From the NCBI GenBank assembly GCA_020722725.1, contig DYKG01000006.1:1-64000 (forward strand): DNA of 64,000 nucleotides. The letters run 5' to 3'. A program made the position numbers and the translations under genes. The DNA is from Candidatus Methylomirabilis sp. Its GTDB lineage: Bacteria > Muiribacteriota > Ozemobacteria > Ozemobacterales > Ozemobacteraceae. Positions 24,555-36,581 of this stretch are shown here, piece after piece. Within the stretch, counting starts at the first letter, position 1. Each line of letters begins with the position of its first letter. Below the pieces are notes generated by a model that ran no database searches, was not told where the DNA came from, and saw only the letters and a list, made by a program, of their open reading frames with translations.

Positions 24555-25151
24555 ATGGGAACGGATGTTGCAGCATTTGCAAAACAACTAAAAGAAGACG
24601 GCATCGACGCGGCGAAGAAAGAAGCAGAAAGCATTCTTGCTGAAGCCAGAAAAGAAGCCAAAAAGCTTCTCGACAGCGCCAAAGCCGAAATCGAAAAAAT
24701 GGAAAAGGACGCAGAAGGCCGGATTGCCCAGAAGCGTGCCAATTCTGAAGCAGAAATTCACCTTGCAGCCCGCGATCTGATGAACAGTTTCAGAAAGCGT
24801 ATTGAAGATGTAGGCAGTCACCTGCTTAAAGGCAAAGTCGCCGAAGCCCTGAACGATAAGGATATCGTTAAGAGCGCAATCAGCGACCTGCTTAAAACCC
24901 AGAAAACCGGCCAGGAATGGGAACTTGCGCTTGGTGCCAGGCTTGGCAGGTCTCTGGCAGATGTGGTTGTAAACCTGTTCAAAGCTGAAGGCGCGACGGT
25001 TAAGCTTGGTGAAGAACTGAAAAAAGCCGGTTTTGAAATCAAAGCCGGAAAAGGTAACGAAGTAATTGAAGTTACCGAAGAATCCATTACTGACAGTTTC
25101 AAGAAGTTGCTTTCGCCTGAACTCAAAAAAATTCTTGAAGCAAAAAAGTAG
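24555..25151 (+). CDS. atpE: V-type ATP synthase subunit E
   Basis: Alanine/lysine/glutamate-rich coiled-coil N-terminus; first gene of V-ATPase operon. Confidence 0.85.
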   Translation: MGTDVAAFAKQLKEDGIDAAKKEAESILAEARKEAKKLLDSAKAEIEKMEKDAEGRIAQKRANSEAEIHLAARDLMNSFRKRIEDVGSHLLKGKVAEALNDKDIVKSAISDLLKTQKTGQEWELALGARLGRSLADVVVNLFKAEGATVKLGEELKKAGFEIKAGKGNEVIEVTEESITDSFKKLLSPELKKILEAKK

Positions 25152-25163
25152 CGGAAGATAAAA

Positions 25164-25880
25164 ATGTCGAGAAAACTTTTTTACCTGATGACCTATCTTC
25201 CGGCATTGCCGGCTAATATCGGTGATGTGCCTGCTGAAGAAGATGCGGTGGCAAAAATCAGAGATGAAGCTGACAAAAACCTGCTGCTGCTTGCCGATCT
25301 GCTCGATGTTGAAAACCTTATTGAACAGACGGGAATGCAGTTTTTTGTTCTGAAAAATCAGGATTTTAAAGTCGAGCTCTCTGAAAGGCTTCCTGCCGGG
25401 TTTCGTGAAACTTTTTACAGTTTTCGTGAAGTTCCTGAGGCAGTCTGGCTTACCACTGTATATGCCGCCTGGTTTGATCTGATCATCGAAATGAGTCGCA
25501 AGGCCGGTTCAAAAATGCTGGCCGACTGGGCTAAGTGGGAGTATTCGCTGCGCACAGCTCTGCGCATTGAGAGAATGCGTGCGGCATCCGGGCAGGCACC
25601 AGACCTCTCAGGCATAGTTCCCGAATTCATGAATGACCCTGATTTCTGTATCGATCACAGTCCGCTGATCGAGGCCTGGAAATCCACCGCTGATCCGATG
25701 ACGGCTGAAAAGCTTCTCGATCAGAATCGTATCGATTATCTGCGCAGTTTTTGCGGCAATTTTACCTTTGCGGTTGAAGAGCTGATCGCTTACATGCTTG
25801 AACTGCGCATTCACAAAAGGTATGCACGCTTGAGCCCTGAACAGGGGCGCAGAATTTTAGAGGAGGTTACCGCACTGTGA
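25164..25880 (+). CDS. DUF2764 family V-ATPase operon protein
   Basis: MSRKLFYLMTYLPALPANIGDVP; location between E and A as in Chlamydia and Borrelia operons. Confidence 0.78.
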   Translation: MSRKLFYLMTYLPALPANIGDVPAEEDAVAKIRDEADKNLLLLADLLDVENLIEQTGMQFFVLKNQDFKVELSERLPAGFRETFYSFREVPEAVWLTTVYAAWFDLIIEMSRKAGSKMLADWAKWEYSLRTALRIERMRAASGQAPDLSGIVPEFMNDPDFCIDHSPLIEAWKSTADPMTAEKLLDQNRIDYLRSFCGNFTFAVEELIAYMLELRIHKRYARLSPEQGRRILEEVTAL

Positions 25881-27610
25881 GTACCACCGGTCGAATCGTT
25901 ACCGTATATGGCAACATGGTTACTGCAGAATTTGAAGGCGCAGTTCGACAGAATGCGGTTGCCTATTGTCAGCGTTCTGACGGCGTCAGACTGATGTCCG
26001 AGATTATCCGCATACGCGGTAAACTTGCTGACATGCAGGTTTTTGAACTGACCCGCGGCCTGAAAGTAGGTGACTCGGTAGAAATTACTGATGAATTGCT
26101 TTCGCTCGAACTTGGGCCTGGCCTGATCGGCATGGTTTATGACGGGTTGCAGAACCCGCTTCCGGAAATGGCTGAAAAAATCGGCAAATTTCTCAAACCC
26201 GGCAATTATCTGAAAGCCCTTGATCGCAACCGTGACTGGGAATTCACCCCGGTTGCATCAGAAGGCGATGTGGTTACCGCCGCCGAAAACCTTGGCAAAG
26301 TCAAAGAAAATATCTTCGACCACTTCATAATGTCGCCGTTCACCCTCGATGGTGAATGGAAGGTAAAGAAGATGGCAAAGGCTGGTAAATACAAAATTGA
26401 AAACGAAATTGCCGTTCTTGAAAAAGATGGCAAGACCGTTTCAGTTAATATGATTCAACGCTGGCCGGTGCGCCTGCCGCTCGGTGTTTATCGCGAGCGC
26501 CTGCTGCCGACCCAGCCAATGGTTACCAAGCAGCGCATTATCGACACCTTTTTCCCGGTCATGCTAGGCGGAACCTATTGTATTCCCGGCCCCTTCGGTG
26601 CAGGTAAAACGGTTTTACAGCAGATTACCAGCCGCCATGCCGAAATCGACCTGGTTATCGTTGCCGCCTGCGGTGAACGCGCCGGCGAAGTTGTTGAAAC
26701 CCTGCGCGAATTTCCGCATCTTAAAGATCCGCGTACTGGCAAGACCCTTATCGAAAGAACAATCATCATCTGTAATACTTCAAGTATGCCGGTCGCAGCC
26801 CGCGAATCATCGGTTTATACCGCAATTACCCTCGGCGAATACTATCGTCAGGTCGGCCTGAACGTTCTGATGCTTGCCGATTCAACTTCACGATGGGCTC
26901 AGGCGCTGCGCGAAATGAGCGGCCGCCTCGAGGAAATTCCCGGCGAAGAAGCATTCCCCGCTTATCTCGAAAGTTCAATCGCCCGTTTCTATGAACGCGG
27001 CGGCATCGTTGAGCTGAAAGACGGACGCAAAGCTTCGCTGACCATTGGCGGCACCGTAAGTCCCGCCGGCGGAAACTTCGAAGAACCGGTTACCCAGGGC
27101 ACTCTGAAGGTTGTCGGCACGTTTCTCGGTCTATCTTATGCCCGTTCCTATGCCCGACGCTTCCCGGCCATCGACCCGCTTGAATCCTGGTCGAAGTATT
27201 CGGGAATTATCGATGGCAAGAAGGTCAGCTGGGCTCACAATTTCCTCAGACGTGGCAAGACCATCTATGAAATGATGCAGGTTGTTGGTGAAGAGGGCAC
27301 TTCGATCGACGATTTCGTAACCTATCTGAAATCAGAATTTCTTGATAACGTTTATCTACAGCAAAACTCATTCGACGAAGTCGATGCAGCCTGCCCGACC
27401 GAACGGCAGCAGTATCTTTTCGAAATGGTTCTTGATGTTCTCAAACATGAATTCACGTTTAAAGACAAGCCTCAGGCTCGCGACATGTTTTTCTCTCTTA
27501 CCGAACAGTTCCGCGACTGGAACTATTCACCCTGGCAGAGCGACAAGATGAAGGAAAACGAGAAGAAAATACGAAGCACTTTAAACAGCAGGGAGGCCGC
27601 ACATGCGTAA
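25877..27610 (+). CDS. atpA: V-type ATP synthase subunit A
   Basis: [12 protein letters not shown]-loop, [45 protein letters not shown]. Confidence 0.97.
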
Positions 27611-28901
27611 GTATTATTCAAAGATCGACAATATTGCCGGTAACGTTGCAACGTTGAAGGCAGACAATGTTGGTTATGAAGAACTCGCTGTAGTCGAAGG
27701 CTCTTGGGGAAAATCGCTGGCGCAGGTAATCAGAATTTCGGGCGATAACGTGGCTCTGCAGATCTTTGCGGGCACCCGCGGCGTTTCTACCGGTGACAAG
27801 GTATCGTTTCTTGGCTCTTCAATGCGGTTCAGTTTTTCTGATGATCTGTTTGGCCGGGTTTTCTCAGGCGGCGGAGAACCACGTGATGGTCGCACTGAAT
27901 TGACCGATAACCTCATCGAAGTTGGCGGCCCGGCGGTTAACCCCGCCATTCGTCTGATGCCTCACCGCATGATTCCCACCAACATTCCGATGATCGATGT
28001 TTTCAATACCCTGGTCGAAGGGCAGAAGCTGCCGATTTTCTCGATTCCGGGCGAACCATATAACGAACTGCTTTCGAGAATCGCATTGCAGGCCGAAGCC
28101 GATGTAATTGTTTTTGGCGGCATGGGTCTCAAATATGATGAATACCTATATTTCCGTCGACAGCTTGAAGAAGGCGGCGCAATGTCGAGAACGATCATGT
28201 TCATTCACACTGCCGCTGACCCGGTTGTTGAATGTCTGCAAACCCCCGATATTGCTCTTACCGTTGCCGAACAGTTTGCCATTCAGGGCAAAAGGGTTCT
28301 GGTTCTGCTGACCGACATGACCAACTTTGCCAATGCGCTGAAAGAAATTTCGATCACCATGGAACAGATTCCTTCTAACCGCGGTTACCCGGGCGACCTG
28401 TATTCACAGCTCGCTTCGCGTTATGAAAAAGCCGTCGTTTTTGAAGAAGGCGGGTCAATTACTCTGATGGCGGTTACCACCATGCCAGGCGACGACGTGA
28501 CTCACCCGGTTCCCGACAATACCGGATACATTACCGAAGGTCAGTTTTATCTCAAGAACGGTGTAATCGACCCCTTCGGTTCTCTGTCGCGTTTGAAACA
28601 GCAGGTAAACGGCAAAACCAGAGATGACCACCGTGCCATCATGGACGGCTGCATTCAGCTGTATTCAAAGTGTCGTGAAACCCGAGAAAAACGTGCAATG
28701 GGTTTTGAAATGTCCGACTGGGATAACAAGCTGCTCAAATACGGCGAAAGCTTCGAAAACGAAATAATGGATTTCTCTGCGAACGTCGGGCTCTATGATG
28801 CCCTGGCCAAGTGCTGGGAAATTCTCGCCCGCCATTTCGAACCTCGTGAAACCGGTATCAGATCAAGCCTTTGTGACCAATTCTGGCCGAAAAGGGATTA
28901 A
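27603..28901 (+). CDS. atpB: V-type ATP synthase subunit B
   Basis: [66 protein letters not shown]-like. Confidence 0.97.
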
Positions 28902-28909
28902 TCATTAAT

Positions 28910-29512
28910 ATGGCTGATAAAATCAAGAAAACCAGACCTGAGCTGCTGCGCCAACGTCGTCAGCTGTCGATGTTCCAGCGGTTTCTGCCCACTCTGGTCT
29001 TGAAGAAACAGCAGATTCAATCTGAAATCCTCAAGGTCAGGGCCGAAGTTGAAAAGCTCGACCAGCAGCTGGCCGGGCGAATCAGGCAGATTAGCTCCTG
29101 GTCCTCTCTGTTCAGTGAATCTTTGCCAGGCCCGCTTACCAGGCTGGTTGCGGTCAAAGATATTCAGCGCGGCATCAGAAATGTTGCCGGTATCAAACTG
29201 CCGGTAGTCAAAATCGTGCAGTATGAAGTTAAAGACTTCAGCCGCCTGGCGACCCCGCCATGGATTGATGCCGGTCTGCGACTGCTGAAAGAACTGATGG
29301 AACTGCGGGAAACCGTTAAAGTTCTGCATGAGCAGGAAGCCCTGCTGCAGCAGGAATTGCGAAAAGTTACCCAGCGTGTCAATCTGTTTGAAAAAGTTAA
29401 AATACCCAGCGCAAAAGAGAATATCAGGCTTATTCGCATTGCGCTTGCCGAAGAGCAGACAGCAGCCGTTGGCCGGTCGAAGATCGCCAAAGGCAAGTCT
29501 GCTGCAGCGTAA
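28910..29512 (+). CDS. atpD: V-type ATP synthase subunit D
   Basis: Coiled-coil; C-terminal ALLQQELRKVTQRVNLFEKVKIPSAKENIRLIRIAL. Confidence 0.93.
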   Translation: MADKIKKTRPELLRQRRQLSMFQRFLPTLVLKKQQIQSEILKVRAEVEKLDQQLAGRIRQISSWSSLFSESLPGPLTRLVAVKDIQRGIRNVAGIKLPVVKIVQYEVKDFSRLATPPWIDAGLRLLKELMELRETVKVLHEQEALLQQELRKVTQRVNLFEKVKIPSAKENIRLIRIALAEEQTAAVGRSKIAKGKSAAA

Positions 29513-29529
29513 AGGAGGTCGATGCATAG

Positions 29530-31299
29530 ATGATCAGTCCAATGAAGAAACTCCTGCTGGCTGCCAGAAACTCTGATCGTGACAGGGTTCTTGAGGTGCT
29601 TAAAGCGGTCGAGGCGGTTCATGTCGAACCGGTTGATCCGACCACGATCAGGCTTCCCGAGGGACTTTCTCTCGAAATAGACAACTGCACCCGGGCAATT
29701 GCATTGCTCGAACAGGTGCGCCCACCGGATAACAGCAAGCTGGTTCCGCCCGGTACGCCTTCCAGAATTGTCGAAGAAGTTCTCAATCACGACAGGGCCA
29801 TTCCTCAAATGCGCGAGAAACTGTCTCAGCTCCGCCATGAGATCGAAGAACTGACACCATTGGGGCCGCTGGGTATCAAAGATATTAAATATTTGATTGA
29901 AAATGGTCTGAAGGTGAAGTTGCTCAAAGGCCCCGCCGACGATTTTTCGCAAATTGTCGCTGAAGCCTCTTCGATGATTTCTAACGATGGTGGAGTTGCT
30001 TTTGCAGTGGTCGCATCGCGAAATGAAATTTCGATTCCGGCAAGTTATGTGGAAATAGGCCTTCCTTCAAGAGATGTTAATACGATCGACACCGAAATTG
30101 TTAACTTCGAACGGCAGATCGAAGAGCATTTAGATGCTCTGTCATGCTTTTCTCTGCGACTCGATGACCTGCGAAAGCATTATGTCAAGCTGATCAATCG
30201 AAAAGCTCATTCTCAGGTTGCCACCGGGGTTTACGTCGAAGATGCGATTTTCGTTCTAACCGGATGGTGCCCGGCCCATCGATCTGAAGAGCTTGGCAAT
30301 GCCTTTGAAAGCGAAGGCATTGCAGTTGGTCTTCAGTTCTCTGAACCAGCCGAAGATGAAACTCCCCCGACGCTGCTGAAGAACTCCGAGTGGGCCAGCT
30401 CCATCGCGCCATTATATGAATTCATGGGGGTTACCCCAAGTTATACCGAAATGGATATCAGCGGCATGTTTCTTATCATGCTCACGATTTTCAGCGCTTT
30501 TCTGCTGGCCGATGCGGGGTATGGGTTTCTGATTCTGATTACTCTCGTTATAGCATACATGCCGCTGGTAAAAAAAGGCGTTGACAAAAATGTCATGCGG
30601 CTCGGCATTTTTCTCGCAGGCGGCGTTTCAATTTACGGTCTGTTAACTAACACCTGGTTTGGTGAAGATTACAAGATTTTTGAAAGCTATCGGTTCGACC
30701 CCAACAGCAAAGATGGGATGATACTTCTTCAGGGCATATGTTTTCTGATGGGAACGCTTCATCTGAGCGGTGCTCATATCGTCAAAGCGCTGCGCCGGAA
30801 AATCGATATAACCATTCTTTCTGAAGTCGGCTGGGTCATGTTTCTTTGGGCCATGTATGGAATAATCTGCGGACTGATTCTGAAACAGGATTTTTTGATG
30901 CCTTCGTCGTGGATAGTTCCTTTGCTTGAGGCTTCCGGCATTCTGATCCTGCTTTTTTCAACCGCTTCGGGCGGTATTTTTGCCCGGATCGGTGCCGGAG
31001 TGGGTGCAATTCTGCAGAATGCTTCGGCCTGTTTTTCAGATATCGTCAGCTATATCCGCCTTTGGGCTGTCGGGCTGGCCGGCGGAAAAGTTGCGGCGGC
31101 TTTCAACGACATTGCAGCAATGCTGCCGATTTTTGTTCTGAAACTTCCCGTGTATCTGCTGGGCCACACAATCAATATTATTCTGGGTGTAATTGCCGTT
31201 CTTGCACACGGTGTTCGTTTGAATCTTCTTGAATTTTCGAATCACTTCGAGCTGGAATGGGCGGGTCGAAAGTATGATCCTTTCAAGGAAATCAGGTAA
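29530..31299 (+). CDS. atpI: V-type ATP synthase subunit I
   Basis: MISPMKKLLLAARNSDRDRVLEVLKAVEAVHVEPV; C-terminal TM half with DIVSYIRLWAVGLAGGKVAAAFN. Confidence 0.94.
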   Translation: MISPMKKLLLAARNSDRDRVLEVLKAVEAVHVEPVDPTTIRLPEGLSLEIDNCTRAIALLEQVRPPDNSKLVPPGTPSRIVEEVLNHDRAIPQMREKLSQLRHEIEELTPLGPLGIKDIKYLIENGLKVKLLKGPADDFSQIVAEASSMISNDGGVAFAVVASRNEISIPASYVEIGLPSRDVNTIDTEIVNFERQIEEHLDALSCFSLRLDDLRKHYVKLINRKAHSQVATGVYVEDAIFVLTGWCPAHRSEELGNAFESEGIAVGLQFSEPAEDETPPTLLKNSEWASSIAPLYEFMGVTPSYTEMDISGMFLIMLTIFSAFLLADAGYGFLILITLVIAYMPLVKKGVDKNVMRLGIFLAGGVSIYGLLTNTWFGEDYKIFESYRFDPNSKDGMILLQGICFLMGTLHLSGAHIVKALRRKIDITILSEVGWVMFLWAMYGIICGLILKQDFLMPSSWIVPLLEASGILILLFSTASGGIFARIGAGVGAILQNASACFSDIVSYIRLWAVGLAGGKVAAAFNDIAAMLPIFVLKLPVYLLGHTINIILGVIAVLAHGVRLNLLEFSNHFELEWAGRKYDPFKEIR

Positions 31300-31319
31300 A
31301 ATCTTCTAAGGAGAAAAAT

Positions 31320-31808
31320 ATGTACACATTTCTGGGAAAATTATCTCTTGGTCTTATAATGGGTCTGGGTGGCCTTGGCAGCAGTCTCGGCATTCAGGCC
31401 GCAGGTACGGCTGCCGCAGCCGGTTGGGCAAAAGAAGGCAAAGAAGGCAAACCGCTTTCTGGTAAATTCAGCGGTCTCGTTGGAATGCCCGTCAGCCAGA
31501 CTCTTTACTGCATGATTCTTTACTTCCTGATGAGCCCTTATGCTTCTGTCGAAGCTAATGGCGGCGTTCTTCTGGGTATTGCCATTGGTGTTGGCCTGTG
31601 CGAAATGATTTCTGCCTGGGTTCAGGGTGTAATCGGCGGCGCCGGGGTTCGAGCTCTGGTTGATAATGGCGGCAAGGGTTTCGGTAACATCATCGTTGCC
31701 ATGGGTATCGCCGAATCAATCGGTCTATTTGCAATGGTAACCGGAATTTTGATTCTGAATTCAGATGTAATGGTTAGGGTTGCTGAAGTTGCTGCAACCA
31801 CTCCATGA
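31320..31808 (+). CDS. atpK: V-type ATP synthase subunit K (proteolipid)
   Basis: Four TMs; MPVSQTLYCMILYFL, WVQGVIGGAG, MGIAESIGLFAMV. Confidence 0.95.
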   Translation: MYTFLGKLSLGLIMGLGGLGSSLGIQAAGTAAAAGWAKEGKEGKPLSGKFSGLVGMPVSQTLYCMILYFLMSPYASVEANGGVLLGIAIGVGLCEMISAWVQGVIGGAGVRALVDNGGKGFGNIIVAMGIAESIGLFAMVTGILILNSDVMVRVAEVAATTP

Positions 31809-31953: not shown

Positions 31954-32397
31954 ATGTCAGAGAAAACCAGGGGAAAAGTGTCGGCGGTCTGTATTTCTGA
32001 AACGGTTGGAACATCAAAGAGAGAGGTTTCGCAATGCCGTTTCATCGCCGGTCGTGGCATAGAAGGTGACGGTCACATTGATACAATCAGACCGGTGAGT
32101 CTGCTGATGATTGAAGATATTGAAGAATACAATTCTGTTCACGAAAAAAAGGCGGGTTTCGGTGATTTTGCCGAAAACCTGGTAACCCGGGGAATTGATC
32201 TGAGAAAAGCCCGGGTTGGTGACCGGATAAGGGTTGGCGATGCGCTGCTGGAAGTCTGCCAGATAGGCAAAGAAGTGCTGCCACAGCACTATTCTTTTCA
32301 CGGTGATCGCCTTCTGCCTACACGCGGCGTTTTCTGTCGGGTAATCGATGGCGGAACCACCACTGCTGGCAGTGAAATTGAACTTCTGCAATCTTGA
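31954..32397 (+). CDS. MOSC domain protein
   Basis: RFIAGRGIEGDGHID...VSLLMIEDIEEYN...FAENLVTRGIDLRKARVGDRIRVGDALLEVCQIGK. Confidence 0.88.
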   Translation: MSEKTRGKVSAVCISETVGTSKREVSQCRFIAGRGIEGDGHIDTIRPVSLLMIEDIEEYNSVHEKKAGFGDFAENLVTRGIDLRKARVGDRIRVGDALLEVCQIGKEVLPQHYSFHGDRLLPTRGVFCRVIDGGTTTAGSEIELLQS

Positions 32398-32489
32398 ACC
32401 GCGCTTGTATTTTCCTGATGGCTCCAGCTTTTCTGCTGGCATGGTTTCAGCTTCGGTGGGGAAATGTGTTGAATCAATCTCATGAAAAA

Positions 32490-32500
32490 TGTGTTAAAAT
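32490..32500 (+). promoter_or_regulatory. Candidate extended -10 TGTGTTAAAAT
   Basis: 41 nt upstream of ATG 32541; same core as other motifs. Confidence 0.4.
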
Positions 32501-32540
32501 TCGGTGCAAGCAGAATCTGGAAAACAGTTTGGAGGCAAAA

Positions 32541-33683
32541 ATGAATAAAATAACGAAGCCGTTCAGGCTCAGATACATGGTGGCAATTTGTTTTCTGATG
32601 GCGGCCATGTCGTGTTTTGCCGCCGAAAACCCCGACTTTCCAGGTAGTGACTCCGGTGAAGTTCATGAGGATTATTTTTCTGATGATTCATCTGCCGGTT
32701 ACTATGACTCCGAAACAAGTTCCAGCGATTTTTCCAGCGGTGAAAGCTACTGCGACGAGGGAAGCAGCGGTGAATCGTCTGGATATTATGATGATCAGGG
32801 CAGCTATGATTCTGAGGGTCAGGGCTACGAAAGCTATGGCGAGGAACAAGTTGAGCCGCAGCCTGCTCCTGAACCGGAAAAACCGAAAATTGAGGCGCAG
32901 CCTCCGATTAAGCTTGAGGAAAAGACAGTAAGAGTTGGACGAATTCCTTATATGAGCATTCGTCAGATGATGAAACGGGCAGTGCCGTTGTTGCGAACCC
33001 TGAAAAAGAAAACCGGTACTAAAGAAGTGCGGCTTTTTTCGAGTGGTACCAGCTATGCCAGCATCATTGAAGCTCTGTCGCGCGGCAACCTTGATTTTGC
33101 CTGGGTTGGGCCGACTGCCTATATCAAGCATCGTGATGAAAAAAATCTGATGGCGATTGCCAAAGCCAAATTTGGCAATGAGACGTCTTATCGCGGAGTT
33201 TTTATTGCCCCCGTCAAAGGCAGAGTTCAGGGGCTCGAAGACCTGCAGGGCAGCAGTGTGGGTTTTGTTGACCCCGAATCGACTAGTGGTTTCATTTATC
33301 CGATGTATCTGCTCAAAAGCCTGAAAATAAAGGTTAACCCAAAGACATCAAGATTTCTTAAAAGCCACGATAACGTGCTTCAGGCAGTTCTTAACGGCAA
33401 AGTCGATGCCGGCGTTTGCCTTGAACAAACATTGAAATCTTCGTCGGTAAAGGATCTTGATAAAAAAATCATCATTCTGGCCAAGACTGAAGAAATTCCA
33501 TCAGACGTTATAATCTGCCGGCAGGATTGCCCGATTAACCTTCGAGAAAGCTTTCAGCAGGCGCTTACCAGCATTAAAGACGGTGATCTTCCCGCCGGGT
33601 CTCAAACTTTCTTGTCTGCTTCAGATGAAGAGTTTTCTGAAGTTGAAGCGATAATGAAGGCGGTCGGCGCTTTGAAAAAATAA
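32541..33683 (+). CDS. PhnD-like phosphate/phosphonate substrate-binding protein with S/D/Y/G-rich acidic linker
   Basis: ATG 32541 + signal peptide; RLFSSGTSYASIIEALSRGNLDFAWVGPTAYI, DLQGSSVGFVDPESTSGFIYPMYLL; start 32394 rejected because promoter-like motif and SD (ttggagg) lie before 32541. Confidence 0.82.
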   Translation: MNKITKPFRLRYMVAICFLMAAMSCFAAENPDFPGSDSGEVHEDYFSDDSSAGYYDSETSSSDFSSGESYCDEGSSGESSGYYDDQGSYDSEGQGYESYGEEQVEPQPAPEPEKPKIEAQPPIKLEEKTVRVGRIPYMSIRQMMKRAVPLLRTLKKKTGTKEVRLFSSGTSYASIIEALSRGNLDFAWVGPTAYIKHRDEKNLMAIAKAKFGNETSYRGVFIAPVKGRVQGLEDLQGSSVGFVDPESTSGFIYPMYLLKSLKIKVNPKTSRFLKSHDNVLQAVLNGKVDAGVCLEQTLKSSSVKDLDKKIIILAKTEEIPSDVIICRQDCPINLRESFQQALTSIKDGDLPAGSQTFLSASDEEFSEVEAIMKAVGALKK

Positions 33684-33689
33684 GTTCTT

Positions 33690-36581
33690 TCAGGCTACTG
33701 GCCTTACCCCCTGATCGGTCCGGGGAAAATGCCGATTCAGCTCTTTCAGCCAGGCGAGAAAGTCTTCGGCCTCTTCGCCGATTAAAGCGGTCAGTTCCAC
33801 TGCGTCATGGCCATCAAAGTGTTTCAGGGCATAATCGGTGAGAATGTTGAGCATTCCAGGGTTACTGAACATTTCAAGTAATCGCTTGAAATAGTTGCGG
33901 AATTTCAGTGCCCGGGCCTCAATCTCATCGCGGGTTTCACGGCGCCGGCGCCAGATTCGTTCGCCAAGAGAAGCCTGGTTAAGCAGAAGCAGGCGCAGAC
34001 AGGTTTTCCCCCGCGGGGCTCTCGACCAGACATAGAGAACGTCAAGCATGGCGGTAATTCTCTCTTCACGATCTTCTGAATGAAGTCTCGGCAGAATTTC
34101 GGTAAGATCGCGTTTTCGCAGCACAAAACGATTGCTGAACTTGTTGCTACCCTCGATGAAGCCAGCGACAACATCAGACCAGAACTTTGCCTGAACGATG
34201 CTGGGTATGCCAAAAAGATTGCCGACCGGTGAAAAAACTGTAACCACCGGCCATGAAAGCACCGAACGGAAAAAGTTGCCGCGAATTACGCTTTTGTCAA
34301 AATTGCGCAAGGTGTTATGAGTCGAAATGTAGATACCGTTGGCAAGGCAGATAAAGAAAAACTTGCTGCTTTCAAAAAGAACTCCCGCCTTCAGACCCGG
34401 GTATAACCAGTCGAAATTGTTTTTCACCAGCCCGAGAACGGGTACGCTGAATCCTGTCCAGAATACGGATTGATAAGCGTTGTCAAAGTTAACGTTTTTA
34501 AGGCTGTAATTCTTGAAATCGGTACCGGAAGAGGCAACCAGATCTACCAGCACATTGCGGAAAAATGTGACGAATAACCAGATCGTCGCAAACACTGTTC
34601 CTACAAACAGATCTCCGTCAAATTGAATGATGAACATCCAGTAAAGGGCGACGACGAAACCGCCTGCAAGGCGAAAAAAATTCTTTATCTCCGGATTCAT
34701 GTATTGCCAGAACCGTGAAAAGTTGATGAGCTCGACGATTTCTTCATCTCCCACCTTGTTGCCGGGAATGGGAATCTGTTTTCCCATGCAGACTATGGTG
34801 TCGTGGTCGCCACTGTGGTCATTCTGCAGTTCTCTGGTCCAGCGACCCTGATTCAAATAAAGAGTTGAAATAGGCTGCGGAAGAACCACATGTTTTTCGA
34901 GAAATTCTTTCTTAATTTTGGGGCAGATTTGGGATGATCTGACAAACCCCATGCCGGGAATCAGCTTGTTGCGTCCGGTTGAATCGCTGCCACAATTTGG
35001 AATGATACCGCGCTGGCTTGCAGCTAGTTTTGCTTTTTCCAGATGGTTCTGTGAAACTCCGGTAATATCATTCTGTTCAAGAAATTCAGCGATTTCTTCG
35101 ATTGGCCGGTTGTTCAGGTAAAAAATGAATTTGTTGAACAAAATAATGTCAGAAGGGTTTCTTGAAGCGCTGTCGCGCAAGTTCATGATTTCAACATGGG
35201 TAAGTTGCCCGGCAAATTCAATTATATGCCTGATTGCCTTTTTTAAGCCAAGTTCGAGGGGGTGAATCATCACCAGCTTTCCCGGAAGTCTGGCTATCGT
35301 ATCAAGCAAAGGCAATTCATCTTCAAAAACACTGTCATAGTCGACTGAACTGCGGGTTGCCAGATATTTTCCGGCCAGCTCAGATCTTGAAAGAGTTTCA
35401 AAGGTGGTGCGGGTGCTTTCATAGCGACTGTTAACCGCATCCATTTCCCACTGGGTATAAGCGCCTCTTTTAAAACGGTCTTTGGCGGCGGCAACCATGG
35501 TTTTGTAGAGCAGAACTCTCTTGTGAAATACTTTGGTGAAGCGATCCTTGAGCAGTTCGCTCAAATGTTCGCGCGAAGCCTGACCACTGGCCACCACTTT
35601 TTTGAATTCTTCTTCGGTTATCGCCGGAAACCAGCATGGACTTTCGGGAGAAAAGTCTTCGTTTAACCTTGGCAGATGGATGTCATTGAACTGTTTGATA
35701 ACTGAAAGCAATGACTTATAACGGTTAGCCTGGTTTTTTTTCAGGCCTTCTCTAAAGTCTTCAAGTTCATGGCGGTGTTTTTCGAGAAAGTTGAAAAATT
35801 CGTGACTGCGCGAAAACAGAGGTGGAACATACATGTAATGCCGGCGATTGCCGCCTTTTCCAACGCTGAATTCAATGCCGATCTCGACGTCGATTCCAAG
35901 AATCTGCCCGGCACTGATTGCTTCATGAATCATTCTTTCTTCTTCAATGTTGTTATATACCAGTGTGATGCGTGACATTCCCTTGATAAAGGCATCAAGA
36001 AGCACCTGGGTTGGGGTTTTTCGGCCTTCTGAAACCGAATCGTGAACATGGTCGTCCCAGCCAAGATCAAGCTTGTTGAGCGCTTTACCAACTTCTGGAA
36101 CTTCTACCAGCGCGAGATCCTTTAAATAAGATCTGATGACGGCTTCGTGCCCGAATGATGCAAGTCCGAAGTCGGCAATGTGTTCCATCTGGCGGCGACG
36201 GTTGCCCTGGGCTTTTACAGTGTCTTTCATCAGCTGAATCTGTACTCGTGCCGTATTAATTGGCATTGTCACAGTTTTTGCATGTAAAGACTGCTCGATC
36301 ATGATTCGCAGGGCCTGTAGTCGGTTATCCGCGTGCTCTGGGCTGTGATGTCTGGCAATAATCAGGTAAGCTTCGGCAATGCTCAGGCGTCGTCGGCCGA
36401 ATTCCCGCCCAAAGCCACCCGGATGGGAAATGTGGCGGTTTGCAAGCCTGATGGGTGGTTCATCGAGTTTCTGATTCAACCGGTCAACGATGGTGTGAAT
36501 TTCATCACTGAAGCTCAGCCATTCAATTATGCCGTTGATGAAGCCTTTCAGGCTTACGAATCCATTTTCCTTGCCAGACAT
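33690..36581 (-). CDS. Large protein: divergent PHP-like metalloesterase region plus C-terminal membrane domain; function unknown
   Basis: 963 aa; DDHVHDSVSEGRKTPTQVLLDAFIKGMSRITLVYNN...GIEFS...VMIHPLELG...VEIMN...CGSDSTGRN resemble PHP motifs; several hydrophobic segments in the C-terminal third. Confidence 0.55.
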   Translation of the reverse strand: MSGKENGFVSLKGFINGIIEWLSFSDEIHTIVDRLNQKLDEPPIRLANRHISHPGGFGREFGRRRLSIAEAYLIIARHHSPEHADNRLQALRIMIEQSLHAKTVTMPINTARVQIQLMKDTVKAQGNRRRQMEHIADFGLASFGHEAVIRSYLKDLALVEVPEVGKALNKLDLGWDDHVHDSVSEGRKTPTQVLLDAFIKGMSRITLVYNNIEEERMIHEAISAGQILGIDVEIGIEFSVGKGGNRRHYMYVPPLFSRSHEFFNFLEKHRHELEDFREGLKKNQANRYKSLLSVIKQFNDIHLPRLNEDFSPESPCWFPAITEEEFKKVVASGQASREHLSELLKDRFTKVFHKRVLLYKTMVAAAKDRFKRGAYTQWEMDAVNSRYESTRTTFETLSRSELAGKYLATRSSVDYDSVFEDELPLLDTIARLPGKLVMIHPLELGLKKAIRHIIEFAGQLTHVEIMNLRDSASRNPSDIILFNKFIFYLNNRPIEEIAEFLEQNDITGVSQNHLEKAKLAASQRGIIPNCGSDSTGRNKLIPGMGFVRSSQICPKIKKEFLEKHVVLPQPISTLYLNQGRWTRELQNDHSGDHDTIVCMGKQIPIPGNKVGDEEIVELINFSRFWQYMNPEIKNFFRLAGGFVVALYWMFIIQFDGDLFVGTVFATIWLFVTFFRNVLVDLVASSGTDFKNYSLKNVNFDNAYQSVFWTGFSVPVLGLVKNNFDWLYPGLKAGVLFESSKFFFICLANGIYISTHNTLRNFDKSVIRGNFFRSVLSWPVVTVFSPVGNLFGIPSIVQAKFWSDVVAGFIEGSNKFSNRFVLRKRDLTEILPRLHSEDREERITAMLDVLYVWSRAPRGKTCLRLLLLNQASLGERIWRRRRETRDEIEARALKFRNYFKRLLEMFSNPGMLNILTDYALKHFDGHDAVELTALIGEEAEDFLAWLKELNRHFPRTDQGVRPVA

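Follow-up and report, generated by a model that had tools for sequence, protein, structure and literature searches.

The locus at positions 33690-36581 of the window, i.e., the whole stretch of 64,000 nucleotides that was analyzed, encodes a protein in which a barrel resembling the PHP phosphoesterases is joined to a hydrophobic region, and the metal-binding motifs of this barrel are altered. This raises the question of whether the protein is an enzyme held at the membrane or whether the barrel serves another purpose. The preliminary description of the locus had correctly reported a 963-aa open reading frame, leaving the strand unstated; it lies on the minus strand, with its ATG at 36581 and its stop codon at 33692-33690. 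Conservation of the frame is far beyond chance: named genomes contain 30 loci with full-length homologues (36-77% identity), 24 of the 57 relatives give matches, a few of which are weak and restricted to the PHP part, and 105 columns are invariant among 34 aligned family sequences. The encoded protein comprises the following parts:

33690..36581, minus strand: whole open reading frame (P0001), 963 aa, stop codon counted in; full-length homologues are known
36087..36581, minus strand: N-terminal helical domain, residues 1-165; no Pfam match
35820..36068, minus strand: first half of the PHP barrel, residues 172-254, with motif I (HxHD), the lost motif II, E237, and H248
35292..35819, minus strand: lid (insertion) domain of enlarged size, residues 255-430; R337-x-H339 corresponds in the alignment to the R-x-H of RNase AM, CV1693, and BAD_1165
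34884..35291, minus strand: second half of the PHP barrel, residues 431-566, with H440, E464, N467, D533, T535, and PGMGF
34698..34883, minus strand: linker, residues 567-628, poorly conserved, pLDDT of 48 around residues 581-590
34137..34697, minus strand: hydrophobic domain of six helices, residues 629-815
33693..34136, minus strand: C-terminal helical tail, residues 816-963, weakly conserved

Fold of the barrel and its lid

By computation, the central part of the protein is a PHP barrel of the RNase AM type whose lid is enlarged, and it is flanked by an N-terminal helical and a hydrophobic helical domain. All motifs from which a PHP domain had been proposed are found in the expected order, which applies to the string DDHVHDSVSEGRKTPTQVLLDAFIKGMSRITLVYNN at residues 176-211, GIEFS (235-239), VMIHPLELG (437-445), VEIMN (463-467), and CGSDSTGRN (530-538). 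The full-length AlphaFold2 model reached a mean pLDDT of 82. Most ten-residue blocks of the barrel had values of 83-94, and lower values were obtained for the motif I loop (77 for residues 181-190) and the GSD loop (69 for residues 531-540). Foldseek comparison of the model with the PDB revealed four matches at E ≤ 0.001, namely 3e0f (8e-6), 3o0f, 9etk (5e-5), and 2yb1 (2.5e-4), all of which are PHP phosphoesterases of one subfamily (target-normalised TM 0.58-0.64). Residues ~172-566, where a TIM-barrel fold had been anticipated, thus match only PHP phosphoesterases at this threshold and form a distorted (beta/alpha)7 barrel with the motifs in order. The curated profiles gave less: P0001 remained below the Pfam gathering cut-off and did not match PF02811, the profile suggested earlier for verification, for which the best family member reached an E-value of 0.016. 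Searches of Pfam and NCBIfam with single proteins, 28 family members, and separate domains yielded weak PHP matches alone, including NF041661 in 24/28 and NF041577 in 22/28 members. Matches to phage-integrase SAM and RHH_4 were rejected as weak and inconsistent. The fold of the model and the order of the motifs support an assignment of residues ~172-566 to the PHP superfamily, with a predicted position near RNase AM, CV1693, and BAD_1165. The Foldseek result and the NCBIfam PHP matches also support the initial proposal, in which a divergent PHP domain is joined to what is probably a membrane domain.

The closest comparison is provided by RNase AM (YciV, Rnm; PDB 7ug9 and, for the Vibrio enzyme, 9etk), which has the same barrel, the same order of motifs, a lid with R-x-H at the same place, and alpha- and beta-metal ligands identical to those of the window protein. 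What had been described as a large insertion is present, and can be specified as this known type of lid: it occupies residues 255-430, between the motif II region and the HP motif, retains R-x-H, and is enlarged to ~176 aa, compared to ~70 in RNase AM (107-176, disordered in 7ug9). Unlike RNase AM, the window protein lacks both gamma histidines and the phosphate arginine, carries Glu in place of D20, and has additional N-terminal and membrane domains. The putative metal-dependent phosphoesterase BAD_1165 (3e0f, 3o0f) is the best fold match (TMt 0.63) and, with 3e0f, the best profile-to-sequence match (E = 0.0078), and GWDxHxH is common to both proteins; however, BAD_1165 comprises only ~300 aa, its nine metal-ligand positions are canonical by alignment, and it lacks the flanking domains. 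Compared to the 3',5'-nucleoside bisphosphate phosphatase CV1693 (2yb1, TMt 0.58), the window protein has lost the gamma site, and with the CV1693 model NF041577 it scores 15.6, far below the cut-off of 400 bits. Finally, the same genome (G000) encodes a 288-aa RNase AM-like protein of the same subfamily (L084; 985-1851, minus strand), in which the nine ligand positions are canonical by alignment, the lid is not enlarged, and a membrane domain is absent.

Metal sites across the family

The active site was mapped by aligning the published ligands of RNase AM onto the family, with clustering of the ligands inferred from homology. RNase AM holds three manganese ions via H13, E72, and D255 (alpha), E72, H83, and H198 (beta), and D20, H45, and H257 (gamma), and its R201 contacts a sulfate (PMC9410882); H15 was counted with the alpha ligands by alignment. 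In the window protein, the equivalents of all alpha ligands (H178, H180, E237, and D533) and all beta ligands (E237, H248, and H440) are present, and the gamma positions are taken by E185 (D20), N210 (H45), and T535 (H257), i.e., the gamma ligands are not retained. Judged by alignment, the window protein is predicted to have complete alpha and beta sites and to have lost the gamma site. For comparison within the family, a tree of 77 sequences was built from the flanking domains only, without the PHP columns. It splits into clade A, which contains the window protein (n = 44), and clade B (n = 33), with an SH-aLRT value of 100; SH-aLRT from a quick search is the only support measure, and one long branch (L036) was flagged. 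Three motifs are listed below, with A and B denoting these clades:

36039..36050, minus strand: H178-V-H180-D181, alpha-metal histidines; H178 in 43/44 (A) and 31/33 (B), H180 in 43/44 (A) and 25/33 (B)
35949..35960, minus strand: V208-Y209-N210-N211, replacing TDHD; gamma His lost, His at position 210 in 0/77
34977..34991, minus strand: G531-S-D533-S-T535, replacing GSDxH; alpha Asp retained, gamma His lost

The exchange of TDH for VYNN, pointed out in the preliminary description, amounts to the actual loss of a ligand in all homologues, and the loss extends further than described there. The second gamma histidine is missing as well, with His in 0/77 homologues at both positions, and the beta and alpha sites are eroded in other parts of the family. 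H248 and H440 of the beta site are each found in 37/44 sequences of clade A compared to 2/33 and 0/33 in clade B, D533 of the alpha site in 42/44 compared to 22/33, and the D20 position is occupied by Lys in 29/33 sequences of clade B. The tree requires at least seven changes for the alpha-site label and at least six for the beta-site label, and 8/8 copies in one sub-clade of a Desulfovibrio-like genus lack the alpha site. Other positions of the barrel and the lid are kept: E464 and N467 in 77/77 homologues, K188 in 75/77, R187 in 73/77, H339 of the lid in 75/77, R337 in 41/44 sequences of clade A, and D181 and the GMG of the PGMGF loop nearly throughout the family. K188 is new, as canonical PHP proteins have a non-basic residue there by alignment.

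With its two remaining metal sites complete, the window protein makes a two-metal hydrolase a serious rival explanation. Such a membrane-anchored phosphoesterase would cleave a phosphoester at the surface of the cytoplasmic membrane, with its hydrophobic domain serving as an anchor or as a guide for a lipid-linked substrate; paralogues without the alpha site would be secondary pseudoenzymes. This would agree with the 32/77 sequences that keep alpha and beta ligands together, all of them in the window's clade, with the observation that members with site loss are often second copies (e.g., L077 in G006, and L075/L076 beside intact copies), and with the proposal that the alpha and beta metals of RNase AM hold the attacking water (PMC9410882). 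However, the exchanges D20A, E72A, and D255/H257A disrupt the activity of RNase AM (PMC9410882), both gamma histidines are replaced in 77/77 sequences, and clade B lacks the beta site altogether, single-copy genomes included. The replacement of R201 by E443 points in the same direction, but means little alone, since an equivalent of R201 is also absent from BAD_1165 and L084. On balance, we regard an active two-metal enzyme as possible, but rather unlikely.

Paralogues were observed in two genera. Genus g115, which looks like Desulfovibrio, carries at most three copies of the gene per genome; among its two to three paralogues per genome (L114-L125), one type has the alpha ligands and the other mostly shows H180Y and D533S/N. 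In genus g6, which belongs to the window's own family, a second copy (L077, G006:C9) carries H180R and D533G, and the main copies (L007/L008) carry H440N, i.e., metal ligands are lost locally among close relatives.

Flanking and hydrophobic domains

The ~170 aa preceding the barrel had been considered unknown sequence. They indeed lack a Pfam match, but form a domain conserved across homologues, in which N109 and R112 (both in 76/76 covering rows), K119, F138, G144, and R150 are invariant or nearly so (n = 77). Both flanking domains are without a match in Pfam and NCBIfam, and outside the full architecture we found the N-terminal domain in none of 57 genomes and the hydrophobic domain in none of 95 genomes.

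The hydrophobic region itself is real, as had been claimed, but only moderately hydrophobic on the Kyte-Doolittle scale. Its six modeled helices span residues 630-653, 658-685, 699-726, 734-758, 763-789, and 794-834, and the domain folded alone reached a pLDDT of 86. The best 19-residue windows score 1.62 and 1.75 in helices 1 and 2 and 0.94-1.47 in the remaining ones, with helices 3 and 6 being marginal. On average, Lys and Arg are enriched in loops 2-3 and 4-5 and downstream of helix 6, and sparse in loops 1-2, 3-4, and 5-6, a pattern consistent with the positive-inside rule for a protein with both termini inside. The model and the moderate hydrophobicity together suggest at least two membrane helices, and probably six; the exact number of passes is uncertain, since hydrophobicity is moderate and strongest in helices 1-2. 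Residues 629-815 could instead form a bundle of helices that is hydrophobic yet soluble, or a patch peripheral to the membrane, considering that a Kyte-Doolittle mean of 1.6 is exceeded by helices 1-2 only and that the neighboring soluble GlmM reaches 1.56. Such a non-membrane protein is very improbable in our view, as the model contains six successive helices of 24-41 residues with short loops, several windows of 1.3-1.75 fall into one 180-aa stretch while those of the first 600 residues never exceed 1.18, and the charges obey the positive-inside rule.

Residues 629-815 are the part of the protein densest in fixed residues, with 23 of the 52 family-wide fixed columns. R675 and N676 are fixed in 77/77 homologues, and H755, N756, R759, N769, R772, K799, S802, and E810 in all 76 covering rows. 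In the predicted topology, the invariant polar residues would sit in loop 4-5 and in those halves of helices 2, 4, 5, and 6 that face the cytoplasm. This density, and the lower conservation of the PHP metal ligands, would also be expected if the membrane domain itself were an enzyme or a transporter, with R675-N676, H755-N756-x-x-R759, R772, K799, and E810 as an active or gating site on the cytoplasmic side and the PHP barrel as a scaffold only. However, the domain resembles no solved fold, enzyme or transporter (best E = 0.23), and has no family match: the AI-2E transporter family (PF01594) was rejected as weak and inconsistent, matching 3/28 members (best E = 4.8e-4) and not the window protein. 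Since the persistence of R187-K188 and the lid histidine is left unexplained as well, we consider an enzyme or transporter with a mere scaffold barrel improbable.

Distribution and proposed role of the family

The window stems from a Riflebacteria-type genome, with Ca. Ozemobacter and other Ca. Riflebacteria as its closest named relatives, and further homologues in named genomes belong to the Myxococcales/Bradymonadales, other delta-type MAGs, and Spirochaetes/Treponema. Among the whole genomes sampled, we obtained matches in 18/284 genomes of the phylum centered on a Myxococcales genome, 5/298 of the phylum centered on a Treponema MAG, and 25/247 of the phylum of G647. As dsrA was above the cut-off in all eight genomes tested from the latter, these apparently are dissimilatory sulfate reducers, probably of the Desulfobacterota (name inferred). 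The family is conserved in full length across at least four phyla, i.e., Riflebacteria, Myxococcota, Spirochaetota, and the dsrA-bearing sulfate reducers. A membrane-fused PHP protein, regarded as unusual in the preliminary description, is hence supported as a fusion, but is no one-off and represents a broad and old family, of which a literature search found no description. A search of plasmids and phages returned no match to the window protein, nothing significant was found among viral structures, and an origin from mobile elements is unsupported. The long N-terminal extensions of L033 and L094 were rejected as domains; by eye, they look like frame that happens to stay open ahead of the actual start codon.

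The gene usually stands alone, so no partner is expected to supply a missing activity; relative to adjacent genes, it is often oriented convergently or divergently. No operon is conserved across phyla, and candidate operon partners vary by locus. Synteny with the V/A-ATPase and glmM is common to Riflebacteria only, with those genes on the opposite strand, and same-strand neighbors are unrelated (TPR, pyruvate kinase, CbiA/ParA-like, calcineurin-like, GDPD, and radical SAM proteins). A sigma-70-like site at 36700-36672 scored no better than shuffles. In the window, an apparent V/A-type ATPase cluster (24555-31808, plus strand; by eye) adjoins the gene, as in several Riflebacteria loci. The frame at 32394-33683 (plus strand) encodes a PhnD-like phosphate/phosphonate-binding protein (by eye) with a long S/E/D/G/Y-rich low-complexity stretch in its N-terminal part, and related frames lie upstream on the same strand in L026 and L029.

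Throughout the family, the gamma site is absent, the beta and alpha sites were lost repeatedly, and selected basic and polar flank residues are fixed. PHP catalysis therefore cannot be the function selected family-wide. We tentatively favor, at a little short of even confidence, a self-contained inner-membrane protein whose PHP barrel has turned into a ligand-binding, probably regulatory module that controls the membrane domain. The polypeptide would cross the inner membrane about six times, with the N-terminus, the PHP barrel, and the C-terminus in the cytoplasm. Its PHP pocket would bind a phosphorylated, nucleotide-like ligand with the help of the lid histidine and of the nearly invariant pair R187-K188, and this binding would in turn control the membrane domain, the invariant residues of which are on the predicted cytoplasmic side. 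Since its alpha and beta sites are intact, the window protein may also bind two metals and hydrolyze the ligand. A binding or sensing barrel acting on a membrane domain would be the simplest reading of the conservation pattern. As a counterpoint, the mostly intact alpha and beta sites in the window's clade would fit retained catalysis, conservation of K188 and H339 may be structural instead, and an enzyme site, rather than an effector coupled to the PHP barrel, may be what the invariant residues of the flanks make up. That the family represents a broad class of inner-membrane receptors or gates, in which a ligand sensor, derived from a nucleotide-processing PHP barrel that lost its metals one site after another, is coupled to an unsolved membrane fold, is a bolder proposal that we hold with less confidence.

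The family is old and conserved in full length across these phyla, yet no curated model names it; neither of its flanking domains has been described, and the Desulfovibrio-like genus maintains two or three copies. Its members keep the same surroundings while the enzyme barrel loses metal sites to differing degrees, a natural gradation that makes the transition from enzyme to sensor testable. If the membrane domain is what its pattern suggests, it would add a new fold to those of membrane proteins, and its compact group of invariant residues would lend itself to mutagenesis.
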